Source of the DNA: Dickeya aquatica
Lineage (GTDB): Bacteria; Pseudomonadota; Gammaproteobacteria; Enterobacterales; Enterobacteriaceae
Length of the DNA: 64,000 nt
NCBI RefSeq assembly: GCF_900095885.1
Contig: NZ_LT615367.1
Coordinates: 1,674,001-1,738,000 of the forward strand
Direction of reading: 5' to 3'
A program made the translations under genes and the position numbers. A model generated the notes under the pieces. The model was not told where the DNA came from. It saw nothing but the letters and a program-made list of their open reading frames with translations, and searched no databases. Below are positions 2,425 through 16,118 of the stretch, in pieces. Every line of letters begins with the position of its first letter. Positions within the stretch are counted from its first letter, which is position 1.

Positions 2425-3876
2425 ATGAACACCACTTCCGCTGATTCTGATGTGTTAAACCCGGCACAAAACCTGACGGATTTTTTTGTGCTGGAGCGTG
2501 CGTTGGGCTTTCATGATCAAACCTTCCCGCCAGCCTGTTATAGCTATGGTTGCGCCTTGCCAGCTATCGTGTATGACGAGTGCGGTGAACCCACTAGCGG
2601 GTTTCGCCTCACCACCAGCCCGGCCGGGGCGAAGGTAACGCTGATTACACCGCTGGTGCCGCTCGATACCGCGCCGATCGCGCACTATATCCACACGGCG
2701 ATAACGCATTCCGATGAGGCCATCACGCTTGAGCTGATACCGACCAAGACCGCGCTGTGGCTGTATTTTGCACCGGGCAATCAGGGGGCATCTGCACCGA
2801 TTGCGTTTGAGAATGGGCAAATCGCACTGACGCACGCGCAAGGGGTCGTCTTAACCGATGCAATCCAGGGGACGCCGGGGCGCGCTTTTCTGCTGGCGAA
2901 GGCCGCTTTTACGGTCTTCGCCAGGGTAACGGTAAGCTTGCAGGCCAACTGGCATGATGTGCTGGTGCAGGCTATCCGTCAGCAAGCCCGTACCGCGCAA
3001 GCGGTCAGCGCGCTGCTGTACCAGCAAATAGAGGCGCGCGTCATTGTGCCGGTGTTGCAGTGCGAGAATGCACCGTCGTGGCAGACACAGCAGAAGGCCA
3101 ACGACGCGGCGATAAAACAGCTCACGCCGATGATAGTCAACACGCTAAAAAACGTGACCACCGTCGAAGACGTCCCCCAGGATCTGAGTTATCGCGTCAC
3201 ATATAGTGAGAGCTATCCTCAAGAGTACCTGCTGGAGCAGTCATACGACATGGCCGTGCTGTTGCGTGATATACCGGCGGCAACCCTGATTTCGTTTACG
3301 CCATTGCCGTTGCCAGAGCCAGAGCCGACACCGGACAAACCGACAGAAAAACACACCTGCCGCGTCTCGCTCGGTTTCAATGCCGCCACGTACCGGATTT
3401 TGTCGATAGAGTTGGCCTGGCGCGATCGTAAAAAAGCGATGCAGTGGCCCAGCTTTCCGGCGCTCACGCTGGAAGCTGAGGGCGACGTGGATGACATCAA
3501 CGTCACGGTGACGTTTGCCGATTACAGCAAATTCTCCGCCAGGCTTGCGTGGGCGGCAAATGTCACGCTGTCGCCGCAGGATATTGGCCTGTATACCGTG
3601 GTGTTTAATGCGGAAAAACTGCAAGCTGAATTTAAGAGTATTTCCGGCTCGGCCACCTATTATTCAGAAAACCAAAAAATAAAACTGCCGTTTAGTTTTT
3701 CGTTTGCTAATCAGCAGTGGAAAATCGCATGGCCAATTAACATCGCCTCTCAGGAATGGAATGGCTGGGTTGAATATCGCTGGCAAGGGAAAATATCAGC
3801 ATTTATATCAAAAAATTATGATTCAGGTGTGCAGAAATCAATAGTGCCTGATATTGAACTGAAATATATAAAATAA
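2425..3876 (+). CDS. unknown protein, array member 2 (483 aa)
   Basis: No named family is recognised. The ATG lies 14 bp after the previous stop, with only a weak AG-rich ribosome site. The protein has no signal peptide. A central strand-plus-helix pattern (ARVTVSLQANWHDVLVQAI, about residues 166-184) resembles VEVKAEFDSIYKEF in the protein at 8054 and FELNAQWQRVYDYL in the one at 6236. This suggests a shared domain. A short Pro/Glu-rich linker (LPLPEPEPTPDKPTEK) near residues 292-310 divides it into two parts. Base composition shifts to AT-rich in the last 300 bp and stays so in the following genes, which hints at acquisition. It is the weakest match to the paralogous set, so its membership is tentative. 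Confidence 0.65.
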   Translation: MNTTSADSDVLNPAQNLTDFFVLERALGFHDQTFPPACYSYGCALPAIVYDECGEPTSGFRLTTSPAGAKVTLITPLVPLDTAPIAHYIHTAITHSDEAITLELIPTKTALWLYFAPGNQGASAPIAFENGQIALTHAQGVVLTDAIQGTPGRAFLLAKAAFTVFARVTVSLQANWHDVLVQAIRQQARTAQAVSALLYQQIEARVIVPVLQCENAPSWQTQQKANDAAIKQLTPMIVNTLKNVTTVEDVPQDLSYRVTYSESYPQEYLLEQSYDMAVLLRDIPAATLISFTPLPLPEPEPTPDKPTEKHTCRVSLGFNAATYRILSIELAWRDRKKAMQWPSFPALTLEAEGDVDDINVTVTFADYSKFSARLAWAANVTLSPQDIGLYTVVFNAEKLQAEFKSISGSATYYSENQKIKLPFSFSFANQQWKIAWPINIASQEWNGWVEYRWQGKISAFISKNYDSGVQKSIVPDIELKYIK

Positions 3877-3915: not shown

Positions 3916-6063
3916 ATGTTGAATACCGCTATACAACAGGCAATTAAAATCAAGACCAGCGCGTATCCGGGTATTTCCGAATATGCCTACACCTGCTACG
4001 GTGACAGTAGCGATAAAAATACGTTCTATATTGTTCCCGAAATTCCGGTTTTTTCTGCACAGGATAAAAAACCGAACTTTATGTTCTACAAATACCGTAG
4101 TGAAGATCAGCAGGGCGGGTATACCCAGTTTACAATTCAATTGCCACAACCGACAGATGACATTAAAGATCAGATAAAAGGCATTCTGTATAAAGACATT
4201 CAGCCACAATTAACCGCACGCTCCAGACTGATCGTACAATATGTGCAGGCCGATCTTGCCTATACGGCTGACCCGGAAAGCAAAGAAAAACAGGATGCCA
4301 TGAATAAAGCTCTGAGCAACACGGGGCTAAGTCAAGAACAGGCGCAAAAATATGTCAGCCTGTATGATCCTAAAGCGGGCGACGCACAATTCCTGGAAAG
4401 TTTAATGCCGGATGGCACGCAGCACATTAAATTACTCACACCGCGTTACACCTCTGCACAGGCCACATTAATTCTTGATGACAACAAAGCGTTTTATCGG
4501 CAAATGCCAGCACCGTTGTCACCCTCAGGCCTTGGCGATAACAACACCGTATTTAGCCTGTCGTTGACCGGTCAAGGGGCCACGTTATTCGAACAGGTAT
4601 TAAAAGGCACCGATAATAATGCCAGCGTGGGGATTCGTTTTGCGCTGGGGTTAGATGCCTCGCTCAATGCGGCAACGGTTACAGTGACATACAACAGCAA
4701 AAAAACCAAAGAGGTGACGCAAACCATCAGCAGGCATACCTGGTCGGCAGATGAAAAAAATATTACCCGAAAATATTATGAATCGGGTGCGATTAAAATT
4801 GATGTACAGACCGGATTAAGTGCCGCCGAAATGGGCATGAGCCAGCAAGATTACAATAGCTGGAAAAGTTCGCTGACGGAGTGGGGGCAAAAACAGGTCG
4901 AGCAGATATTAACCAGCCAGACCGGTCTGGATATGAGTCTCGACTTACTGAATGACGCCGGTGGATTTGATAAATTTCAGGAAAGCCTCGAGAGTACACA
5001 AGATTTTACCCGCGTATACACAGAAAACTCGATAGTGCCGTTTATGATTTTCCCGCAAGCGCAATTACCGTCCATTCGCTCGATTGTGGGAGAGAAAAAT
5101 CTCGATCAATACTTTAAAGAATACGATCTGAACGATCCGTTCTATCAATATATTCAACCTGAGTTCTACGTTTCTCAGGATTTGAAAAAATACAATATCG
5201 AAAACATTGTGGTCACGGCAAAATATGATGACAACAATGTCAGTACACTGGTGTTTGACCAGAAAGATGCCTCATCGAAAAAAACCAACAAATGGTACAT
5301 TGATAAAAAACTGGGCCGTACCTATAGCTACAGTTATCAGGTCAATTTCTCCGGCCTGCATGCCAAGCCCTATCTTTCTGGTAAAATAGAGGTCGTAGAC
5401 AGTCTGGTGCAAAGTATTAACACGGCACAATGCGGTATTGTTTATGCGCAAATTGACGCCCTGCTGTATGAGCAAGGCTGGCAAAAATTCACTCAGGTGG
5501 TGGTAAAAACCCAGTATTCCGATCCGGCGAATAAAATTGAACTGAAGAGTGATACGCAGGTGCTTTCTCCTGCCAATCCGCCGCAACCCTTTATTTACCC
5601 TGTCGGCATGGCACCGGTGAACCCTATCTATTTCTCGGCTGACTATTACACCAAAGACGGTAGCAACTTTACGTATATTCCGGTAGGTATTGAAACCAGC
5701 CCACAATTGCCGGGCTATGGTGCGACGCGGGCGAACCAAATTCAGATATTTAATGCGTTGCCTAAAACACAAACCTACACCATATTTTTTATTGTGCAGA
5801 AAAAAGATGTGCTGGTGATAAGCCTGGATGTGACAGTGAATTACAAGGCGTATAAATTCCAGCAAACACAGTCTGTTAATCTTGAAGAATCAGAATTGGG
5901 TAGCGGTACAATAAAGAAATCGCTCAGTTTCGGCCTGTTACCGGATGGATGTGATGATATTCCTGAAATCAGTTACAGCGGTATCGTGGTTTATAGCGGA
6001 GATAAGGAGCCGCAGGTACTTTCCGGCACCCCAACCAATGGGTCGATTATTATAAAATGCTGA
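3916..6063 (+). CDS. unknown beta-rich protein, array member 3 (715 aa)
   Basis: This is the largest array member and its function is unknown. The start is supported by AGAGGAAG about six bases before ATG 3916. Residues 37-41 (FYIVP), 51-55 (KKPNF) and 65-69 (QQGGY) correspond in order to FWYMP, KPVFS and QQGGY in the protein at 8054. A second shared block is GDNNTVFSLSLTGQG (about residues 206-220) against GNNSAIFSAKLTPEQ. A third is NDPFYQYIQPEF against NDPFFQKIDL. No signal peptide, transmembrane helix or catalytic motif is visible. The rest is a succession of probable beta strands, with a helical insert near residues 100-150. The gene is AT-rich relative to the chromosome. It is followed by the longest gap in the operon, 172 bp with a hairpin. 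Confidence 0.75.
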   Translation: MLNTAIQQAIKIKTSAYPGISEYAYTCYGDSSDKNTFYIVPEIPVFSAQDKKPNFMFYKYRSEDQQGGYTQFTIQLPQPTDDIKDQIKGILYKDIQPQLTARSRLIVQYVQADLAYTADPESKEKQDAMNKALSNTGLSQEQAQKYVSLYDPKAGDAQFLESLMPDGTQHIKLLTPRYTSAQATLILDDNKAFYRQMPAPLSPSGLGDNNTVFSLSLTGQGATLFEQVLKGTDNNASVGIRFALGLDASLNAATVTVTYNSKKTKEVTQTISRHTWSADEKNITRKYYESGAIKIDVQTGLSAAEMGMSQQDYNSWKSSLTEWGQKQVEQILTSQTGLDMSLDLLNDAGGFDKFQESLESTQDFTRVYTENSIVPFMIFPQAQLPSIRSIVGEKNLDQYFKEYDLNDPFYQYIQPEFYVSQDLKKYNIENIVVTAKYDDNNVSTLVFDQKDASSKKTNKWYIDKKLGRTYSYSYQVNFSGLHAKPYLSGKIEVVDSLVQSINTAQCGIVYAQIDALLYEQGWQKFTQVVVKTQYSDPANKIELKSDTQVLSPANPPQPFIYPVGMAPVNPIYFSADYYTKDGSNFTYIPVGIETSPQLPGYGATRANQIQIFNALPKTQTYTIFFIVQKKDVLVISLDVTVNYKAYKFQQTQSVNLEESELGSGTIKKSLSFGLLPDGCDDIPEISYSGIVVYSGDKEPQVLSGTPTNGSIIIKC

Positions 6064-6235: not shown

Positions 6236-8044
6236 ATGGATGAAGACAATAGTAAACAGGATATCTGTTTTATTAATGCATCATTGGGCAGCCATGTTTA
6301 TTATTATTGTGCGGCCGCGCCTGAAATAGTGACGCGTGATAATCAGCCTTGTGTGCAATATCAGGTATTCAGGAATAATGCGCAGCCCGATCAATACTAC
6401 GCTATTCTTTCACTGCAAACTCAATTGCTGACAAGCCTGACTGATGCGCAATATGCTGCACACCATGATACGGATATTCCGGCCGATGCCACACTGCTGC
6501 CTTTGCCGGTGATGGCCAGCACCGCCACGCTCAGTATTCCTGGCATCATGAACGCGAATATTCATAATACGTCTCTTGGCAATAGCCAGTTTTGCTACAT
6601 GATGGTGAGCCTGACACAGGCGCAGGATATTGAACGGCTTGCCGCATTACTCAAAACGCCGCAAGCGGTGCCGATAGCGGTGAGCTATAAAATCGATTAT
6701 TTGCAACAATTGCCCCCCTCAACTTTTGAGCTGAATGCGCAATGGCAGCGGGTTTATGATTATCTGAAAACGAATGTTGGTTTTAATGCCCTGATCTTTT
6801 CCGTCGATATTGAACATATCTCGGAAACCTTGCTGGAGCAGCGACTGGTCACCATTCAATCCACCGACATCGACCCGCAAAGTCATGTCAAAGAGGCCGG
6901 GCTTGAGCTGACGCAAATTCTGATGGCAAATTTCTTCACGCCGGTATTTGGCAAGGTGAATACCGGAGCTGAGCCGCGCTTTGGTTTTTATTTACAGCAG
7001 GTTTCCATTGAGGATATTGAGCAACGCACATTAAGTGCCCGTATTGCCCAGACAAGCGTTGTCCGGCGTTCTTTTTATCCTCAGGCATTATTTACCGGGT
7101 TGATTGGCAATAGCCACTATTCAGCGGAGACTGTCATCAGTTATCACACGCTGGCGGATGAATTTTTCGCCTGTCGCACCGTGAATGCGCAACTGCTGAC
7201 CCCTCAGCTTGATGCGAATATTAAATTCGTGGTGTTAAACCTGACCTACGGCACAACAACACAGTCATTGGTTTTTTCAGCCAGTAAAAGTGGGCCACAA
7301 AAGTTTATTGCGCCGAGTATGATTGACCCGGTGACAAAGCGAATGGTCTGGCCGGTGGAATATTCGTTTACGCTGAATTTTAACCACCCGATAGGGGGTG
7401 TCACCAACGTCACGTCGGCGAAAATGACCACCGCAATGACGGAGCTGTATCTTGATGTTGAATCGTTATATAGCCGCTATCGCTTTATGATTCACGCAGC
7501 AAAAGATTTTGACTGGCAATGGTATAGCGCTATTTTCGTTAAAATTGTCTGTTACCAGATTAATCATGTCGATAATCATATTGCAAAAAGCCTGCTAATC
7601 AATCGTGATAATCCGAGTTGTGAATATGAATTGATGTTGCCGGAGCCGGAAGGTTATCAATTCGAGGTGTTTAAAGAGTACAGCGTGGCGGACAATGCGG
7701 CACATATTGCGGCGAAAATACATGAGCCGACCAGCCAGGATATTACGCTGTTCTCCCGGTTATATAAACAACGCCAGTTATTGATAGTGGCCGGATTTAA
7801 CTGGGAGGAGATTGATCAAGTTATCGTGACGGCACGTTATCTGGCTTCGCCCTCACAGACATTGAAACAGGACTTCTCTTTTTCGATGGGAAGCCCTGCC
7901 GATGCATTATTCAGTGCCGACCAACCGGATGCTGAAGTGACGTCGGTGGATTTAGATATTCTTATTGTAGATAAACAAGGTCAGGTTCATCCCAAAAACA
8001 TTTCTACCGATGCTGACAGCATTGATATTGCTAACCTGTATTGA
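6236..8044 (+). CDS. unknown beta-rich protein, array member 4 (602 aa)
   Basis: Function unknown. ATG 6236 follows a good GAGGAG ribosome site. The N-terminus carries VYYYCAAAP (from residue 21) and RDNQPCVQYQVF. These align with the aromatic/Pro and KPxFSxxKY motifs of the proteins at 3916 and 8054. About residues 115-140 (GNSQFCYMMVSLTQAQDIERL) match the GNNSAIFSAKLTPEQAVIL block. They are followed by a strand plus FELNAQWQRVYDYL, which matches VEVKAEFDSIYKEF. The shared block order supports true paralogy with the 8054 protein. No signal peptide or membrane segment is present. The stop overlaps the ribosome-binding region of the next gene, so the two are very probably cotranslated or at least cotranscribed. 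Confidence 0.75.
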   Translation: MDEDNSKQDICFINASLGSHVYYYCAAAPEIVTRDNQPCVQYQVFRNNAQPDQYYAILSLQTQLLTSLTDAQYAAHHDTDIPADATLLPLPVMASTATLSIPGIMNANIHNTSLGNSQFCYMMVSLTQAQDIERLAALLKTPQAVPIAVSYKIDYLQQLPPSTFELNAQWQRVYDYLKTNVGFNALIFSVDIEHISETLLEQRLVTIQSTDIDPQSHVKEAGLELTQILMANFFTPVFGKVNTGAEPRFGFYLQQVSIEDIEQRTLSARIAQTSVVRRSFYPQALFTGLIGNSHYSAETVISYHTLADEFFACRTVNAQLLTPQLDANIKFVVLNLTYGTTTQSLVFSASKSGPQKFIAPSMIDPVTKRMVWPVEYSFTLNFNHPIGGVTNVTSAKMTTAMTELYLDVESLYSRYRFMIHAAKDFDWQWYSAIFVKIVCYQINHVDNHIAKSLLINRDNPSCEYELMLPEPEGYQFEVFKEYSVADNAAHIAAKIHEPTSQDITLFSRLYKQRQLLIVAGFNWEEIDQVIVTARYLASPSQTLKQDFSFSMGSPADALFSADQPDAEVTSVDLDILIVDKQGQVHPKNISTDADSIDIANLY

Positions 8045-8053
8045 GGAGACGTC

Positions 8054-9769
8054 ATGTTATTACTGAGAGAAAAGACCGCGACTATCAATAATATTACCTT
8101 TTTTGCCGATGATGCCGATGAAAACCAGTTCTGGTATATGCCGGGTGATCTCCATATCGCGCAAAAAGACAGGAAACCGGTGTTCTCGCTAATTAAATAC
8201 ACCGGCGACGGGTCAAACCAGCAGGGCGGCTATCTTAATTTCGAGGTAAATACCGCACTCGATGAAACCACGCTCAACAGCGCGTTTCGCACTTATCTCA
8301 GCCAGATGAAAATCGCTGCCCCGCAAGCCAGAAAAGCCCCGGTCCCTTTTGACAGCGGTACGGTCGATTTCTTTGTGCTGGATGTAAAAAACGGCAATGG
8401 GCAATTGATTAGCGCCCAGAGCCCGAGTCTGTTTGGCAATAACTCGGCGATTTTCAGCGCCAAACTGACCCCTGAACAGGCGGTTATCCTGGAAGCGGCG
8501 TTTAATCAGGCGCAGGCACCGGCAGCGGTGGCCTATAACCTGACCTATACCGGTATTACACCGGCGCTGAAAGTGGAGGTCAAAGCCGAGTTTGACAGTA
8601 TCTATAAGGAATTTGGTGCCAAATTCGGCATCAATATTCCCATACCGGTAGAAACACCGGCCAGCTTCTGGCTGGGGTTTGATGCGGTGATTAAAAAACT
8701 TCAGCAAGATCAAAAACTGGTTATCACGGTGACGGAGAGTCTGCCTGATGAGCAGGCGGCGAAGGAGAAAGAGTGGGCGCTACAGTTTGTTAAAGAGGAA
8801 CTGCTGAAAAGCTTCTTTGATGCCAGCATCAAACCGAATGCTGAAAGCAACGAACAATCCAAATCAGCCAGAGATGCCATTCTGGATGCGCTGATCAGTA
8901 ACCAGAAAAAGGCGCAGGAGAGCGGTGGCGGGAAAAGTGACGAGGGCGGAGAAGGGGGTGGTGGTGAAGGAGGCGGCGGCGGTGAAGCGGGCAAGGGCGG
9001 ACTGTTCCCCTGTGCCTCGCTGGAGCTGAAAGTGGTCAGAATCGAAGAGGTCAAACGACTCAACGTTAACTACACCTCATCGCGCGCCATTACCCAGTCG
9101 GCCGTGCCGCAAAACTTCATTGGTTCTAAGCTGCTGCAAGCGCCGAAAGCGCCGCCTTATTATATTGAGGTCAATGTTAACGACCCGTTCTTCCAGAAAA
9201 TCGACCTGACAGTATTGGGGCCGGATGGCTTTGATGATTACGGTATCAAAGCGGCGTCATTCAAACTGGCCTATAACAACAGCGTCTACACGACGGCGGC
9301 CTTCACACACGATGACAGCCAATGGAGCCAGACGGTCGCGCGCAGCGGCAATGCCAATGAGCTTTTTGATTTGCAAGGCGAATTCGCCTTCAAAACCGCC
9401 AGCACCTCGGGATGGGAAGGCAGCACCAGTTATCTGCAACAGACCCAAACGGCCTCCCAGCTTATCAACCTCGACCCCAGCACATTCCTGAGCTTCAACA
9501 CGATAAACATCATGCTGGATAAAAAGCTGGTGTGGGATAACTACAACCAGATAGTCGTCGAGATAAATTACCAGGACGATAGCCTGCGTAAAAAGACGAA
9601 GAAGTACACGTTTACGGCGGATAACCGTGCGATGCAAACCTTCAAATACCGCTGCCCGACGGAAAAACCGTGGCGGATTGAGTACAGCGTGACCTATTTT
9701 GAGGCTGGTGGCGACACGCGAACGGTGCAGGGGAATCCTAACCCGGCCGCCATTATTGTGTCGGCGTGA
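8054..9769 (+). CDS. unknown beta-rich protein with Gly-rich linker, array member 5 (571 aa)
   Basis: This is the clearest representative of the family. FWYMP is at residues 26-30, KPVFS at 41-45, QQGGY at 56-60 and GNNSAIFSAKLTPEQAVIL at about 128-145. A strand-helix VEVKAEFDSIYKEF lies at about 174-187. Around residues 290-316 a low-complexity linker of Gly, Glu, Ser and Lys (GEGGGGEGGGGGEAGKGG) joins two halves. The second half has YIEVNVNDPFFQKIDL and further beta strands like those of the 3916 protein. There is no signal peptide. ATG 8054 has GAGGAG six bases upstream, within the end of the preceding gene. Only 3 bp separate it from the prenyltransferase-like gene, which implies coordinated production. 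Confidence 0.75.
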   Translation: MLLLREKTATINNITFFADDADENQFWYMPGDLHIAQKDRKPVFSLIKYTGDGSNQQGGYLNFEVNTALDETTLNSAFRTYLSQMKIAAPQARKAPVPFDSGTVDFFVLDVKNGNGQLISAQSPSLFGNNSAIFSAKLTPEQAVILEAAFNQAQAPAAVAYNLTYTGITPALKVEVKAEFDSIYKEFGAKFGINIPIPVETPASFWLGFDAVIKKLQQDQKLVITVTESLPDEQAAKEKEWALQFVKEELLKSFFDASIKPNAESNEQSKSARDAILDALISNQKKAQESGGGKSDEGGEGGGGEGGGGGEAGKGGLFPCASLELKVVRIEEVKRLNVNYTSSRAITQSAVPQNFIGSKLLQAPKAPPYYIEVNVNDPFFQKIDLTVLGPDGFDDYGIKAASFKLAYNNSVYTTAAFTHDDSQWSQTVARSGNANELFDLQGEFAFKTASTSGWEGSTSYLQQTQTASQLINLDPSTFLSFNTINIMLDKKLVWDNYNQIVVEINYQDDSLRKKTKKYTFTADNRAMQTFKYRCPTEKPWRIEYSVTYFEAGGDTRTVQGNPNPAAIIVSA

Positions 9770-9772
9770 TCG

Positions 9773-11767
9773 ATGAACCCGACGATGACCGATGAGTCGG
9801 TTGCGGTTGTCCCGGCGTCGTTAGCGGCGCTGGTGACGGCCTTGTGCGAGTTTGCGCCGCATCAGGCAGAAGCGTTGCGCCAGGATGTGATGCGGGTTGT
9901 GCAGCATCGCATGGCCTCCGGCCTGCTGTCGGCGGCGTTTAATACCAGCCTGCTGGCCTATAACGGCAGTCCGGTCGAGTTTACCGCCTCGACGCTCAGG
10001 CCGCAGGCCATCGCGTGTACGCTGGATCCGTTCGTGCCATTGTTCCGGCAATCGTGCCAGCTATCGGCATTGCAGGCGCTCTATCCGCACCTGTTGCCTG
10101 ATGACACGCTATCACCGGCGGCGCGTACCGCGCTGGCGGCGTTAGCCGACATACAAACGTGCGCCGACGCAGCCCGGCCACTGCGTTTTGGTAGCTGGAT
10201 TGGCCGCAAATACCGCCCGGATGCCGCCAGCACCAAGATTTATGCCGAAATGCCGCCGACCGCGCGCGCATTTGAGGCGTTGCGTCACTCGCCGTTTCCC
10301 CACGCCGCCTGTGCCAGCGACAGGCACGCGCTGGCGAACGCCGGGCTGACGTTATTGATGCTAGGCCACTATCCCGACGAGCCTGATGCACCAACCGAGT
10401 ATTACTATCAATGGCATAGCGCAGAAATTACGCTGGCGGATATCGCGGCGGTCATGCGCTATTTTGGCTGTGAAACGCAGTTTCCCGCACTGCAAGCCTT
10501 GCTCGTGCGGGCGCTGGCAGCGCTGCCGGAAAAAACGGCATTTCCGGCCACCACCTACGGCTTTAGTGTGGTGTACCGGCCATCAGCGCGATCGCAAACC
10601 CATCAGCCCGACAGTGTTAGCCTGTTTACCCTGGCTCCCGGTTTTCTGGGGGGCGTCGCCCCGGCAGCAGAAAAAATGGAGGCGTTGCTCCATCAGGCGG
10701 GTGCGGGCAACACTCAGGGGACGCCGCTGCTGCATCACCTCATCCGTCGTCAGGTGCCGCTACAGTTTAACGTTATCGGTTTTGCGGTGGATGCGGCGGG
10801 CAGAACCGGCATCAGTTACACCTTCAGCCCGCAACAATCGGTATTTAACGAAGTTAACCTGAAAGCCCCGCGCCCGTCAGCCAAGAGCACCGGTGCACCG
10901 CTGACCACCCTGCTCAGGCAACAGCAACAGGCCAGCGGGGCTTTTGCCAGTATGGTCAGAACCCCTGACGGGCGCTGGTATCAGGACGACAATGCCTTTG
11001 TCACTGCGCAGGTAGTAAGAACGCTTGACTACGCACCTGAAACGGCCGGTTATATCGACAAGGCGCTCGATTTTTTGATGCGCTGTCAGGTCAGCGAGGG
11101 GCATTTTAGCTTTTGGCCGCCGGATGCCCACCCCGCGTGGATGGGGGAGCAGACGATAGTGCCGGACATTGATGACACCGCAATTATTACGGAACTGCTG
11201 TATAAATTTGGCCGCATTTGTGCCGGGACGGTACGGCAAACATTGATGCACATGAATGGCTACCAGCTCGAACGCGTGGATGCGCGGCTGGCCGCGCCAC
11301 AGCATCAGTGGGCGAGCTGTCAGGTGTTTCATACCTGGATGAAAGCAGAGAATGACATTCGGCAACTGGATTGCTGCGTGAACACCAATGCACTGATTTT
11401 ACTGCACCGCTATTATGGTGCGCAGGCGAGTACGATCCCGGCGTACCACCGTATTATGACGATGCTGCATAATGCGTTTCGCTGGAGTCAGAATGATTAT
11501 TCGCGCCTCAATACCTTAATACCTTATTACGCGCATCCTAATGAGTGGCGGGTGGCGCTGGAATATGCCCGCGCGCTGGGGGTGGAAAACCTGGACACGC
11601 TGATTGAACCATTAAAAAAATGGCGAGCTACCGGTATTCCAGCCGAAATTCCGCTTTATCGCCGTCATGATGGTTTGTATTTGTGGACATCATCCAGTTT
11701 AGCGCGCTTTCGGTATCTCTCTGTCTGTCATAACCACCGCTCGGCTACTACCACGACGAGGAAATAA
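9773..11767 (+). CDS. ABBA prenyltransferase-like / alpha-alpha toroid (DxDD) fusion protein (664 aa)
   Basis: Two enzyme-like halves are visible. Residues about 50-365 show the strand motifs of DMATS-type aromatic prenyltransferases. NGSPVEF (64-70) places Glu69 where the family has its catalytic Glu (GTPFEL in fungal members). A TLDP turn follows (compare TFEP), then TKIYAEMP (154-161) with the Lys-x-Tyr pattern, and a last strand GISYTF (346-351). Residues about 375-650 form an alpha/alpha barrel. DGRWYQDD (399-406) and KALDFLMRCQVSEGHF (430-445) fit the QW motif of squalene cyclases and protein prenyltransferases. DIDDTA (465-470) is the DxDD acid motif of class II terpene cyclases. Such cyclases normally have two barrels; only one is seen here. 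An activity of attaching or cyclising an isoprenoid is inference. It sits tightly between paralogous unknown proteins (3 bp and 2 bp gaps). Confidence 0.6.
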   Translation: MNPTMTDESVAVVPASLAALVTALCEFAPHQAEALRQDVMRVVQHRMASGLLSAAFNTSLLAYNGSPVEFTASTLRPQAIACTLDPFVPLFRQSCQLSALQALYPHLLPDDTLSPAARTALAALADIQTCADAARPLRFGSWIGRKYRPDAASTKIYAEMPPTARAFEALRHSPFPHAACASDRHALANAGLTLLMLGHYPDEPDAPTEYYYQWHSAEITLADIAAVMRYFGCETQFPALQALLVRALAALPEKTAFPATTYGFSVVYRPSARSQTHQPDSVSLFTLAPGFLGGVAPAAEKMEALLHQAGAGNTQGTPLLHHLIRRQVPLQFNVIGFAVDAAGRTGISYTFSPQQSVFNEVNLKAPRPSAKSTGAPLTTLLRQQQQASGAFASMVRTPDGRWYQDDNAFVTAQVVRTLDYAPETAGYIDKALDFLMRCQVSEGHFSFWPPDAHPAWMGEQTIVPDIDDTAIITELLYKFGRICAGTVRQTLMHMNGYQLERVDARLAAPQHQWASCQVFHTWMKAENDIRQLDCCVNTNALILLHRYYGAQASTIPAYHRIMTMLHNAFRWSQNDYSRLNTLIPYYAHPNEWRVALEYARALGVENLDTLIEPLKKWRATGIPAEIPLYRRHDGLYLWTSSSLARFRYLSVCHNHRSATTTTRK

Positions 11768-11769
11768 TC

Positions 11770-13197
11770 ATGAATGTTTTTCTGAATAATTTAGTGGCAT
11801 TGAATAAAATTATTTTGGAGAATGCGCAGCAACAGTTTATTTCATCACCATCAGCGACCGGGCGGGCATTAGAATCAGGTGCCGCCGCGCTGCCGGATGA
11901 CTTAACCGCCGCCGTTAATACGGAAATCGTTTCAGGAGAAACGCGTTATCAAATTATCACCGAATCGGATGGCACCAGCTGGAGTTTGAGAGTGAATTTC
12001 TCACTTAATCAATCGGTTCCGGTCATTCCTTATGTGGTGCTCAGCTTTAGTCAGTTTGGCCAGTTTAGCGAAATGGTCTTTGATGCGGTCTCTCAACTGC
12101 CCGACCGGCGCTATACGGCCCGGCTTAAATTAACCAGACTTGAGCAGCGCGATGCATTATTACGCGCACTGTCGAATTATGATGCAAAAACCACGCTGGT
12201 GGTATTGATTCGCACGGATGACGATATGCTCAATACCATCACTGACCCGAAAATATTTTATTTTGCTGAAAATTATTACCCCTATATTTATCAGGGTATC
12301 GCGCCACCGCCTGCGCGTCTGGAGTTAATTCTTAAACCGCTAGACTATAATAATGTCTGGTATAATTATTATCAGGATAACCGCAGCAGGGATTATTTTT
12401 ATTATTTGCCCGATAAGTTCATGCTGGCAACCGACAGTGCTAATAATAACAAACCGATGTTGTCCATTTCATTTTCAGTACCGGAAGGGGCAACCGAGCC
12501 GGATCAGGTGAATGTTACCTTTGAATATTTCTTATTGCCGAAAGTCAATCAGCAACGTATTCGTCTCGCTGCCACGGCGTTTTCTGCCGCACAGCCCAAT
12601 AGCACATTAATTCCGTTTGCCAGTGCCAGTCAGCTTGAGCTGCAATTATGGCTCCCGGCAGGAAAAACACCGCAGCCGAATGCGCTGATTAACCTGCAAA
12701 GCGGTATTGCCGATGGTTTTACTGTGCCCTCAGCGCAATTTGGTAAAATCTGGGATGCGTTTTTTGCTACCGCCGCCCAGCATATGTTGTTAAAAGGCGA
12801 ATTGTCGGTCAAACAAGAGGGATTTCCAGCCGATACGCTGGCGGTGCAGCTCACGCTGGATGCGCAATATAAAAACCAACCGGCGTTGTTTATCGACCAG
12901 AGCGCGCCGGTTGATATTACCCGAACGTTAACCTTCGTCAGTCGTAAAGGCAGCTTCGATCCAAACGGGCCGAAACCGATTGAGCGTATTCTGATAAGCG
13001 CTGGCAATAAAACGCGGGTGCTGAGTGCCGAGGTGCTACAACAATCAGTGCAGGTAAAAGTCTCGGCGCTTCAGGTGATCCTCAATCCCGCTGCCACGAT
13101 AACCTACCGATACAGCCTGCAAATTCATTATGCCGATGGCTCGACGAAAAATATCAATGACCAGTCATCCATTTATGAAACGATTTACGTTCCCTGA
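11770..13197 (+). CDS. unknown beta-rich protein, array member 6 (475 aa)
   Basis: The start ATG 11770 follows GAGGAA and lies 2 bp after the preceding stop. Function is unknown. The motif YFYYLP (209-214), followed by NKPML (227-231) and SISFS, matches the FWYMP/KPVFS pair of the 8054 protein. RRYTARLKLTRLEQRDALLRAL (113-134) matches the SAKLTPEQ block. Here the second block comes before the first, so either the domains are permuted or repeats were lost. The C-terminal 150 residues form an immunoglobulin-like run of strands (VDITRTLTFVSRKGSF, then HYADGSTKNIND). No signal peptide or membrane segment is seen. It is the last gene of the array and is followed by short GGGGAC-containing repeats. 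Confidence 0.7.
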   Translation: MNVFLNNLVALNKIILENAQQQFISSPSATGRALESGAAALPDDLTAAVNTEIVSGETRYQIITESDGTSWSLRVNFSLNQSVPVIPYVVLSFSQFGQFSEMVFDAVSQLPDRRYTARLKLTRLEQRDALLRALSNYDAKTTLVVLIRTDDDMLNTITDPKIFYFAENYYPYIYQGIAPPPARLELILKPLDYNNVWYNYYQDNRSRDYFYYLPDKFMLATDSANNNKPMLSISFSVPEGATEPDQVNVTFEYFLLPKVNQQRIRLAATAFSAAQPNSTLIPFASASQLELQLWLPAGKTPQPNALINLQSGIADGFTVPSAQFGKIWDAFFATAAQHMLLKGELSVKQEGFPADTLAVQLTLDAQYKNQPALFIDQSAPVDITRTLTFVSRKGSFDPNGPKPIERILISAGNKTRVLSAEVLQQSVQVKVSALQVILNPAATITYRYSLQIHYADGSTKNINDQSSIYETIYVP

Positions 13198-13259: not shown

Positions 13260-14171
13260 TTACAGCTTGAGCGCGGCAACCGCCTGCTCCAGCGCCTGAC
13301 GCAGTAACGCGCGATCGTGCCGGTACGGGACATCGTGCGCGGCCAGATCGTGTCGAATAATCAGACGGCCATCGGTGTCTTGCGTGTTAATCAAGGGAGA
13401 GACGATAGCGGCGTTTATCGTCCGCTGATGCATCTTCTCCTCCAGCCAGCGTAGCTTCTGCGCCAGCGTCAGGCGGGCGGCGATCGGGCTTTGCTCACGC
13501 CCCAGATTGCCGATATACACCACGGGCGCGCGGGCGTGATGCAGCGCCTGCGCCAGATCGTCAAGCAACAAGAGCGGCATCAGGCTGGTGAGAAAGCTGC
13601 CGGGGCCAATCAGGATCAGTTCGGCGTGTGCGATGGCTTCCAGCGCCTCTCGCGTGGCGCTAACGGCCGGGTAGAGCAGCAAATCTTGCGGCAGGGCAAC
13701 CAGTTGATCGACCTCGACTTCGCCATACACTTCCTGACCCTGGGTGTCGATAGCCAGCAGGTCAACCGGTTGTTCTGACATCGGGATAAGGTGGGCATCG
13801 ACTTTGAGCAGGTCACGAATCAGGTTAATCGCATCCAGCGGGCGCACGCTGAGGTTATCCATCGCTTTGAGCATCAGGTTGCCAAGATTGTGGCCGGAGA
13901 GCTCGCCATTACTGTTAAAGCGGTACTCGAACATGGCGGAGGCGACGCTTGGCGTGGTAATGAGCTGATTCAGGCAGTTGCGCATATCGCCCCAGGCAAT
14001 ACCGCCTTCGGCACGGCGAATCCGGCCGGTGGAACCGCCGTTGTCGGTCGTGGTGACGATACCCGTCAGCCGTGAGCCCAGAAAGGCGAGTGATGACATC
14101 ACGCGCCCGAGGCCGTGGCCGCCGCCCAATGCCACGACACGATCCAGTTGCGCCAACGTGCGATTACCCAT
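13260..14171 (-). CDS. ybhK: YvcK/YbhK-family gluconeogenesis factor-like protein
   Basis: The 303-residue protein belongs to the CofD/YvcK family. Members bind UDP-sugars (YvcK of Bacillus) or related phospholactyl substrates, and they influence carbon metabolism and cell shape. The N-terminal [17 protein letters not shown] is the nucleotide-binding loop. [16 protein letters not shown] and [10 protein letters not shown] are the characteristic downstream blocks, and [17 protein letters not shown] is the conserved C-terminal signature. Length and start ([13 protein letters not shown]) agree with E. coli YbhK, which also neighbours moaA. Here a cytochrome bd operon intervenes. It is a cytosolic protein. 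Identification is firm; the exact biochemical role in enterobacteria is not settled. Confidence 0.92.
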
Positions 14172-14735
14172 AATTCCCCTTATCTTCCAGCGAGCTACCC
14201 GAAAAAGTAGCGGATATATACCACATCCTTTGCTCAGGCAGCATCAGAGCATGCATAAATTTCGCTGAAACCGGCTGTCAGGCATGAAATAAAAGAGAAT
14301 GAATGAGGGTGCGGCAGTAAAGCGCGCGGTATGCCCGCACAATACGCTGGTGGAAAAACAGCCTGGTATTGCGCGATGAGCGTTGCGGGAATATCAACAG
14401 CAGGTGCCATGAAATCGTCATTTCACATGCGGTAAGGTGAAATGAAAAATGCTGTTATGGTTTTTTTATGTTTTTGTTTTTAAATAAATATCTAATGTGT
14501 TTATAGCAGGAAATAATGGCAGTGAATTAATCAATACAAACTGTTATAGCGTAATCGTTCCAGACTGTTTATGTCTATTTTTCCGCCGTCATTTTAAGAT
14601 CCCTCACGCCGTATCCCGGTAGTGGCATACATAGTTCATGCATACGTTTTTAATGCGCCGTTTTTTTCCGCAGGTCTTTTATTCCCAGAGTAAAGTCAAT
14701 TTATAGCAGGGCTGATGACGGCCCAGAGGTAATAC
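14172..14735. other. intergenic region, divergent promoters of ybhK and cio operon
   Basis: This 564-bp AT-rich stretch separates two divergent genes and must hold both promoters. I see no convincing ORF or RNA gene. The part from 14450 to 14720 is strongly AT-rich with T-runs. AGAGGTAA about six bases before 14736 is the ribosome site for the oxidase gene. No clear FNR-type TTGAT-N4-ATCAA site was found by eye. Confidence 0.5.
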
Positions 14736-16118
14736 ATGTTCGGACTCGATGCATTTCATCTGGCGCGGATCCAGTTTGCGTTCACGGTCTCTTTCCACAT
14801 CATTTTTCCTGCCATCACCATCGGGCTGGCCAGTTTTCTGGCGGTGCTGGAAGGGTTATGGCTGAAAACCCAAAATAGCGACTATCGTGCGCTCTATCAT
14901 TTTTGGTCGAAAATTTTTGCGGTCAATTTTGGTATGGGCGTGGTGTCCGGGCTGGTTATGGCCTATCAGTTCGGTACGAACTGGAGCGGATTTTCCAGCT
15001 TTGCAGGCAGTATTACCGGCCCGCTGCTGACGTATGAAGTCTTGACCGCGTTTTTTCTCGAAGCCGGGTTCCTCGGCGTGATGCTGTTTGGCTGGAATAG
15101 GGTAGGGCCGGGTCTGCACTTCTTCGCCACCTGCATGGTGGCGCTGGGTACGATTATCTCGACGTTCTGGATACTGGCTTCCAATAGCTGGATGCAAACC
15201 CCGCAGGGCCACGACATTCAGCAGGGTGTGGTGGTGCCGGTAGACTGGCTGGCGGTTATCTTCAACCCCTCGTTCCCCTATCGGCTGTTGCATATGACAA
15301 CGGCGGCGTTCCTTGCCAGCGCCTTTTTCGTTGGCGCTTGCGCCGCCTGGCACTTGCTGCGTCATAACGACACCACGGCGATACGCAAAATGTTGTCGAT
15401 GGCGTTATGGATGGCGCTGATTGTCGCGCCACTTCAGGCGCTGATCGGGGACATGCACGGCCTGAATACGCTGAAATACCAGCCCGCTAAAATCGCGGCG
15501 ATTGAAGGCCACTGGGACAACCCACCCGGCGAGCCCACGCCGCTGATTCTTTTTGGCTGGCCGGATATGGCGCAGGAAACGACCCGCTACGCGCTGGAAA
15601 TCCCTTATCTGGGCAGCCTGATTCTGACCCACAGCCTTGAGCAGCAAGTCCCGGCGTTGAAAAGTTTTCCGCCGCAGGATAGGCCCAATTCGGCGGTGGT
15701 GTTCTGGTCATTTCGCATCATGGTCGGGCTGGGAATGCTGATGATCCTGCTGGGGGTGCTGGGGTGTTGGCTGCGCCGGGGCCATCGGCTCTATCAGTCG
15801 CGGCCATTTCTGTGGTTTAGCTTGCTGATGGGGCCATCCGGGCTGATTGCCATTCTGGCAGGCTGGTTTACCACCGAAGTCGGCCGCCAGCCGTGGGTGG
15901 TTTATGGTCTGCAACGCACCCGCGATGCGGTATCGGCGCACGGCTCTCTGCAAATGAGTATCAGCCTGTTGCTGTTTATCGCGGTGTATTTGTCGGTATT
16001 TGGCGTGGGGTACGCCTATCTGGTGCGGTTACTTAAGCAGGGGCCGCAGGCTGACGTTGAGCCTCTGGCATCTCTCGGTGGGCCAGCGGTGCAACAGACG
16101 CAGGAAGAGGAGAAATAA
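14736..16118 (+). CDS. cioA: cytochrome bd-type (cyanide-insensitive class) quinol oxidase subunit I
   Basis: This 460-residue polytopic inner-membrane protein is CydA family. It oxidises quinol and passes electrons through haems b and d to oxygen. The N-terminal FHLARIQFAFTVSFHIIFPA includes the conserved His ligand region, and GFWILASNSWMQTP-like text (ILASNSWMQTP) is diagnostic. The periplasmic Q-loop is short: only about 60 residues separate GDMHG from the next membrane helix. That places it in the CIO/short-Q-loop class rather than E. coli CydA. The gene is followed after one base by subunit II and then a DUF2474 small protein, the usual three-gene arrangement of this oxidase class. A charged tail (QQTQEEEK) ends the protein. 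Confidence 0.9.
   Translation: MFGLDAFHLARIQFAFTVSFHIIFPAITIGLASFLAVLEGLWLKTQNSDYRALYHFWSKIFAVNFGMGVVSGLVMAYQFGTNWSGFSSFAGSITGPLLTYEVLTAFFLEAGFLGVMLFGWNRVGPGLHFFATCMVALGTIISTFWILASNSWMQTPQGHDIQQGVVVPVDWLAVIFNPSFPYRLLHMTTAAFLASAFFVGACAAWHLLRHNDTTAIRKMLSMALWMALIVAPLQALIGDMHGLNTLKYQPAKIAAIEGHWDNPPGEPTPLILFGWPDMAQETTRYALEIPYLGSLILTHSLEQQVPALKSFPPQDRPNSAVVFWSFRIMVGLGMLMILLGVLGCWLRRGHRLYQSRPFLWFSLLMGPSGLIAILAGWFTTEVGRQPWVVYGLQRTRDAVSAHGSLQMSISLLLFIAVYLSVFGVGYAYLVRLLKQGPQADVEPLASLGGPAVQQTQEEEK

Follow-up and report, generated by a model that had tools for sequence, protein, structure and literature searches.

A predicted ABBA prenyltransferase–class II terpene cyclase fusion in a Dickeya gene cluster, and its two-gene relatives

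What does a protein do whose first half resembles an aromatic prenyltransferase and whose second half resembles a terpene cyclase? The question is raised by a 664-residue open reading frame (enzyme X; positions 9773–11767, + strand) in a 64,000-nucleotide stretch of the Dickeya aquatica genome (the window), where it lies seventh among eight same-strand genes (A–F, enzyme X, G). A sequence-only reading had proposed that the enzyme prenylates a substrate and then cyclises the chain, and had regarded such a fusion as undescribed. The reading frame holds, and the motifs named there, NGSPVEF with Glu69, TKIYAEMP, GISYTF (residues 346–351) and DIDDTA, lie at the residues given for them. Enzyme X and 40 homologues make up a family of 41 proteins that cover at least 92% of its length, the nearest homologue (85% identity) being from Dickeya lacustris. 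Neither Pfam nor NCBIfam holds a model of the family's own.

The predicted fold of the first half is an alpha-beta-beta-alpha barrel, in which residues 8–358 (9794–10846, +) match ABBA prenyltransferases of the DMATS type, namely PriB, Streptomyces coelicolor 5-DMATS, FgaPT2, TleC and MpnD, at about 9–17% identity. No relevant match was found when the PDB was searched by sequence with enzyme X alone, with the 41-protein profile or with the first small half-profiles. A 40-row N-half profile matched FgaPT2 (E 0.0036) and TleC (0.023), and a 19-row subset matched MpnD (0.038), TleC (0.12) and FgaPT2 (0.47), with unrelated chains at E 0.12 and 0.13 interspersed among the prenyltransferases. The Pfam model Trp_DMAT was matched by 3 of 40 N-half members (best E 0.0029). 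In the alignment of the N-half profile (A5) to FgaPT2 (3i4x), a family Glu falls on Glu89 and a family Arg on Arg100, which are chain positions 95 and 106 by our own count (offset 6). The Glu is Glu69 of NGSPVEF (residues 64–70; 9962–9982, +), present in 41/41 fused proteins and 33/33 separate N halves; the short P0118 and P0124 were omitted from A5. Lys155, Tyr157 and Glu159, all within TKIYAEMP (residues 154–161; 10232–10255, +), and Tyr211 are invariant in the same 41 and 33 rows, and Glu209 is present in 40/41 and 33/33.

The second half (residues 367–656; 10871–11740, +) is predicted to be a class II terpene-cyclase beta domain, a DxDD alpha-alpha toroid, so that in prediction neither half lacks the fold first proposed for it. 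Against the PDB, a 54-row C-half profile matched squalene-hopene cyclase at E 0.0032 over the whole chain, with DVDDTAV aligned and no single stretch significant alone. Further matches were a bifunctional diterpene synthase (0.19) and drimenol synthase (1.1), the latter ranking below unrelated protein A chains at E 0.03 and 0.16; a 19-row subset matched squalene-hopene cyclase at E 0.0011. For both halves the profile matches are weak, yet the two families that they indicate agree with the predicted folds. The C-half alignment (A4) omits P0069, P0076, P0083 and P0097 and carries P0049 in place of its longer twin P0046. All 54 of its rows, fused and separate, are identical at Asp465, Asp467 and Asp468 of the acid motif (DIDDTA, residues 465–470; 11165–11182, +), at Asp533, Asn537 and Asn539 of DCCVNTN (residues 533–539; 11369–11389, +), and at Pro584, Tyr586, Trp638 and Arg647. 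Glu69, Lys155, Tyr157 and the three Asp of the acid motif are likewise unchanged in 41/41 fused rows, and such invariance (41/41 plus 33/33 for the N-half residues, 54/54 for the DxDD Asp) is far beyond chance. The canonical QW motif assigned to residues 430–445 (11060–11107, +) fared less well: the stretch fits a loosened QW-like pattern, with Phe allowed at its end, but the pattern recurs in only 2/41 fused rows and 1/54 C-half rows, and Gln439 in 3/41 fused rows. The QW motif is known from triterpene cyclases and is not known to mark every beta domain.

The explanation that we favor, by a little better than an even chance, is that a DMATS-type ABBA barrel is joined to a single class II DxDD cyclase domain, and that the enzyme prenylates, or binds in prenylated form, an aromatic acceptor and then cyclises the chain. 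The first half would bind a long prenyl chain on the acceptor or attach it there, and the second half would fold that chain into rings. By analogy with indole binding by Glu89 of FgaPT2, Glu69 may hold the N-H or O-H of the acceptor ring. Asp467 would protonate the terminal double bond of the chain, as suggested by the middle Asp of AsDMS (D333); according to excerpts of the reports on that enzyme, the variants D331A, D331N and D333N abolish all activity (PMC12365925; PMC9128629). Phosphate and proton relay in AsDMS involve Y373, R378, Y426 and Y427. The order originally suggested for enzyme X, prenylation followed by cyclisation, is plausible.

Is the transferase site intact? In FgaPT2, Arg100, Lys187 and Lys259 bind DMAPP, and Glu89 is the partner of the indole N-H, according to passages of PMC11443524. 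The equivalent of Arg100 is Arg in 32/33 separate N halves but in 0/41 fused proteins, which have Ala (19), Ser (18) or Tyr (4) instead. Similarly, the Arg in the terminal GLRPP is retained in 32/33 separate N halves and replaced by Ser in 41/41 fused proteins, while position 213 is Arg in 25/33 of the former and Gln (39) or Leu (2) in the latter. With all three positions changed throughout the fused proteins, the diphosphate site of their ABBA half looks altered. By strand order rather than residue alignment, the invariant Lys155 may occupy the place of Lys187; by the same guide, enzyme X would have no Lys in the place of Lys259, and its strand 208–214 contains none. As every fused protein has lost two Arg residues, one of them the counterpart of Arg100, transferase activity is not secured. 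One may therefore imagine that the fused ABBA half has retired from transfer and only binds a pre-prenylated acceptor, presenting it to an active cyclase half in which the cyclase residues are kept. We judge this unlikely, at perhaps one chance in four. Against it, retention of Glu69, Lys155, Tyr157, Glu159 and Tyr211 in 41/41 and of Glu209 in 40/41 would be unusual for a dead site, and Lys146 (41/41 fused rows) and Arg145 (37/41) could replace the lost charge. The cyclase half, unlike the ABBA half, shows no drift between fused and separate forms. Given that its residues are kept whereas the Arg100-type donor residues are absent from the fused rows, cyclase function is the safer call from sequence, and the case for prenyl transfer by the fused proteins is weaker.

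The two halves also occur as separate neighboring genes, across four phyla. A genome scan yielded 17 loci, 14 of them near relatives and 3 distant (a Calothrix plasmid, Hymenobacter and a Caldilineaceae MAG), and in all 3 distant loci the halves are encoded by two frames that adjoin or overlap. Plasmid AZO_p5 of Azospirillum lipoferum 4B carries a fourth separate pair. Protein searches returned 51 C-half and 35 N-half hits (query rows partly included), among them proteins from Sorangium, Pyrinomonadaceae, Phytomonospora, Mycobacterium, Moorena, Xenococcus and Paenibacillus. Twelve separate C/N hit pairs come from contigs of equal length, which suggests that they are neighbors; a thirteenth looks like a single interrupted fused copy. 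Its apparent pieces, P0048 and P0098, were treated separately, P0098 being tallied among the fused rows of the A5 table and P0048 among the 54 rows of A4, and both were left outside the trees. The 41 fused proteins lie on one side of a single branch both in the N-half tree (74 rows; branch support 100/100) and in the C-half tree (88 rows, FastTree; branch support 100). One fusion therefore suffices to account for them. Fused rows with a named organism come from Enterobacterales, Chromobacterium, a Colwelliaceae bacterium and one record named Pseudomonas lundensis.

How does enzyme X compare with known systems? The belief that the fusion was undescribed does not hold. A 2026 review describes NctPC as an ABBA P domain fused to an MstE-like C domain; the enzyme places a C20 chain on tryptophan (geranylgeranylation) and then cyclises it, work that the review credits to Hubrich et al. 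2024, Chem (PMC13290415). The two-domain architecture was thus already known, and NctPC, by its description, has the same two folds in the same order as those predicted for enzyme X. It differs in acting on tryptophan and in being discussed among peptide prenyltransferases, whereas enzyme X has large-protein neighbors, no visible precursor gene and a lost Arg100 position. Enzyme X shares the two-domain logic of NctPC and apparently belongs to a sequence family of its own. The DMATS-type enzymes named above differ from enzyme X in that it carries the cyclase fusion and keeps neither Arg100 nor, by strand order, Lys259. AsDMS (HAD-TC beta) is similar in having a single class II TC-beta domain, with an Asp acid motif (DxDTT, versus DxDDT in enzyme X), C-terminal to a catalytic domain; in AsDMS, however, that partner is a HAD phosphatase rather than the ABBA prenyltransferase matched by residues 8–358. 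MstE, known here from papers, resembles the C half as a monodomain class II cyclase (PMC12365925, in excerpt) but stands alone, and it is absent from the fold matches listed for enzyme X. Literature searches confined to open-licence papers listed no description of the enzyme X family or its cluster. What is new here is the occurrence of split and fused forms, the gene neighborhood and the altered donor site.

The neighbors of enzyme X are large. Gene A (557 residues, +) has a C-terminal Hint domain (PF07591, 4.5e-8) and starts upstream of the window, of which it occupies positions 31–627 (full frame L019:2955-4628). It is followed on the + strand by gene B (586 residues; 650–2410), gene C (483; 2425–3876), gene D (715; 3916–6063), gene E (602; 6236–8044) and gene F (571; 8054–9769), the last directly upstream of enzyme X; gene G (475; 11770–13197, +) lies directly downstream. 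Family searches with B–G gave no family above noise. Distant kinship links D, E and F (blastp 7.6e-6 for D–F), although E is related to F only weakly (0.003–0.004). The model of F, of moderate confidence (pLDDT 74.8, pTM 0.41), consists mostly of strands and resembles Ig-like strand arrays with no specific match, and the large neighbor proteins are probably beta-rich. Genes F and G flank enzyme X in 12/12 near-relative loci (L002–L013; F is partial in L009). Two more, L014 and L015, contain pieces of the whole cluster with many interrupted frames, reflecting either assembly error or decay; they were excluded from the neighbor-gene alignments.

The distant pairs, too, have relatives of the D, E and F proteins beside them. 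A profile of these proteins, searched against the open reading frames of four loci, found members in Azospirillum (3.5e-35), Hymenobacter (2e-25 and 1.1e-14) and Calothrix (2e-11), all of them absent from the profile itself, and a single-sequence search found a Caldilineaceae relative of F (E 8.6e-57). The triad of two halves plus a member of the D/E/F superfamily therefore recurs in 5/5 contexts examined, a count that takes the near relatives as one context and sets other standalone pairs aside. The distant loci have contents of their own. In Azospirillum, a gene annotated as HBL/NHE enterotoxin family (L022:6406-7788; PF05791, E 2.2e-12) is found upstream of the split pair; of the two genes that separate it from the pair, one is the D/E/F relative. 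At L016:12508-14514 and L017:12413-14464, the pair is followed by two genes with stretches reminiscent of endonuclease/exonuclease/phosphatase folds, and then by a gene of about 1500 residues; the two Calothrix genes have no Pfam match. The Caldilineaceae cluster includes trypsin-like protease genes (L018:8877-9926 and L018:18760-19833; PF13365/PF00089), one with an effector-associated EAD1 domain, and beside the pair two genes (L018:11915-12658 and 14170-15384) with N-terminal VRDHRG-like repeats, possible substrates or linkers.

These neighborhoods bear on the acceptor. MstE acts on a prenylated aromatic acid, and enzyme X could by the same token be a small-molecule meroterpenoid synthase whose large neighbors are unrelated or serve in export. 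DMATS-type enzymes do accept a range of aromatic substrates, according to passages of PMC11443524. However, none of the genes A–G was recognised as serving tailoring or the building of aromatics, and in each of the five contexts examined the pair is found together with related large proteins. We regard this reading as rather improbable, at about one chance in five. Still less probable is a RiPP maturase of the NctPC kind (PMC13290415, in part), which would geranylgeranylate Trp of a short precursor peptide and cyclise the chain: the two folds do come in the same order, but no precursor gene is visible between A and G or in the five contexts, the gaps between A–G are at most 172 bases, and the gap that is widest here measures 24–75 bases in the 11 near-relative loci with both flanking frames, leaving no conserved room inside the cluster for a precursor gene of ordinary size. 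Both readings are special cases of the favored explanation, and hence the chances given here overlap. The 387 bases that precede gene A wholly contain one 83-residue frame (frames of at least 60 residues were listed). Under the favored explanation of transfer or binding followed by cyclisation, the absence of a recognised tailoring enzyme among A–G and the lack of room for an ordinary precursor gene suggest that the acceptor would be another cluster product or a side chain on a protein encoded alongside enzyme X, the most tentative step of the scheme; enzyme X may modify its large neighbors.

The cluster is an accessory insert. Its flanking genes are presumably uvrB and ybhK, named after the E. 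coli order uvrB-ybhK-moaA. Of 9 genomes of the genus, 7 have no detected enzyme, and in these the matches to the two genes are separated by about 60 to 580 bases, compared to 14.7 kb in the window's genome (4.50 Mb, a single contig); it is this difference that indicates an insert. In G001, the other carrier, the enzyme directly precedes ybhK where the contig starts, with uvrB near the far end. The cluster is rare, occurring in 1/369 sampled genomes of the class and 1/394 of the order, in both cases the window's own genome.

A wider reading, to which we give only a slim chance, is that enzyme X does the lipid writing for a cluster that is widespread but undescribed, attaching a cyclised terpene to a large beta-sandwich protein encoded with it, that the enterobacterial form is a single fusion with a remodelled donor site, and that the Hint domain of gene A cuts or joins the modified product. 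Fused prenyltransferase-cyclases have been reported only recently, for ribosomal peptides, and here the same pairing, encoded by one gene or by two, appears in four phyla and in surroundings that look different. Separate pairs that keep an Arg100-type donor site, set against a fused clade that does not, offer a natural experiment. Were a protein of the cluster to be the acceptor, this would amount to bacterial protein lipidation of a new kind and, if the cyclised-terpene reading is true, a ring-closed terpenoid modification of full-size bacterial proteins.
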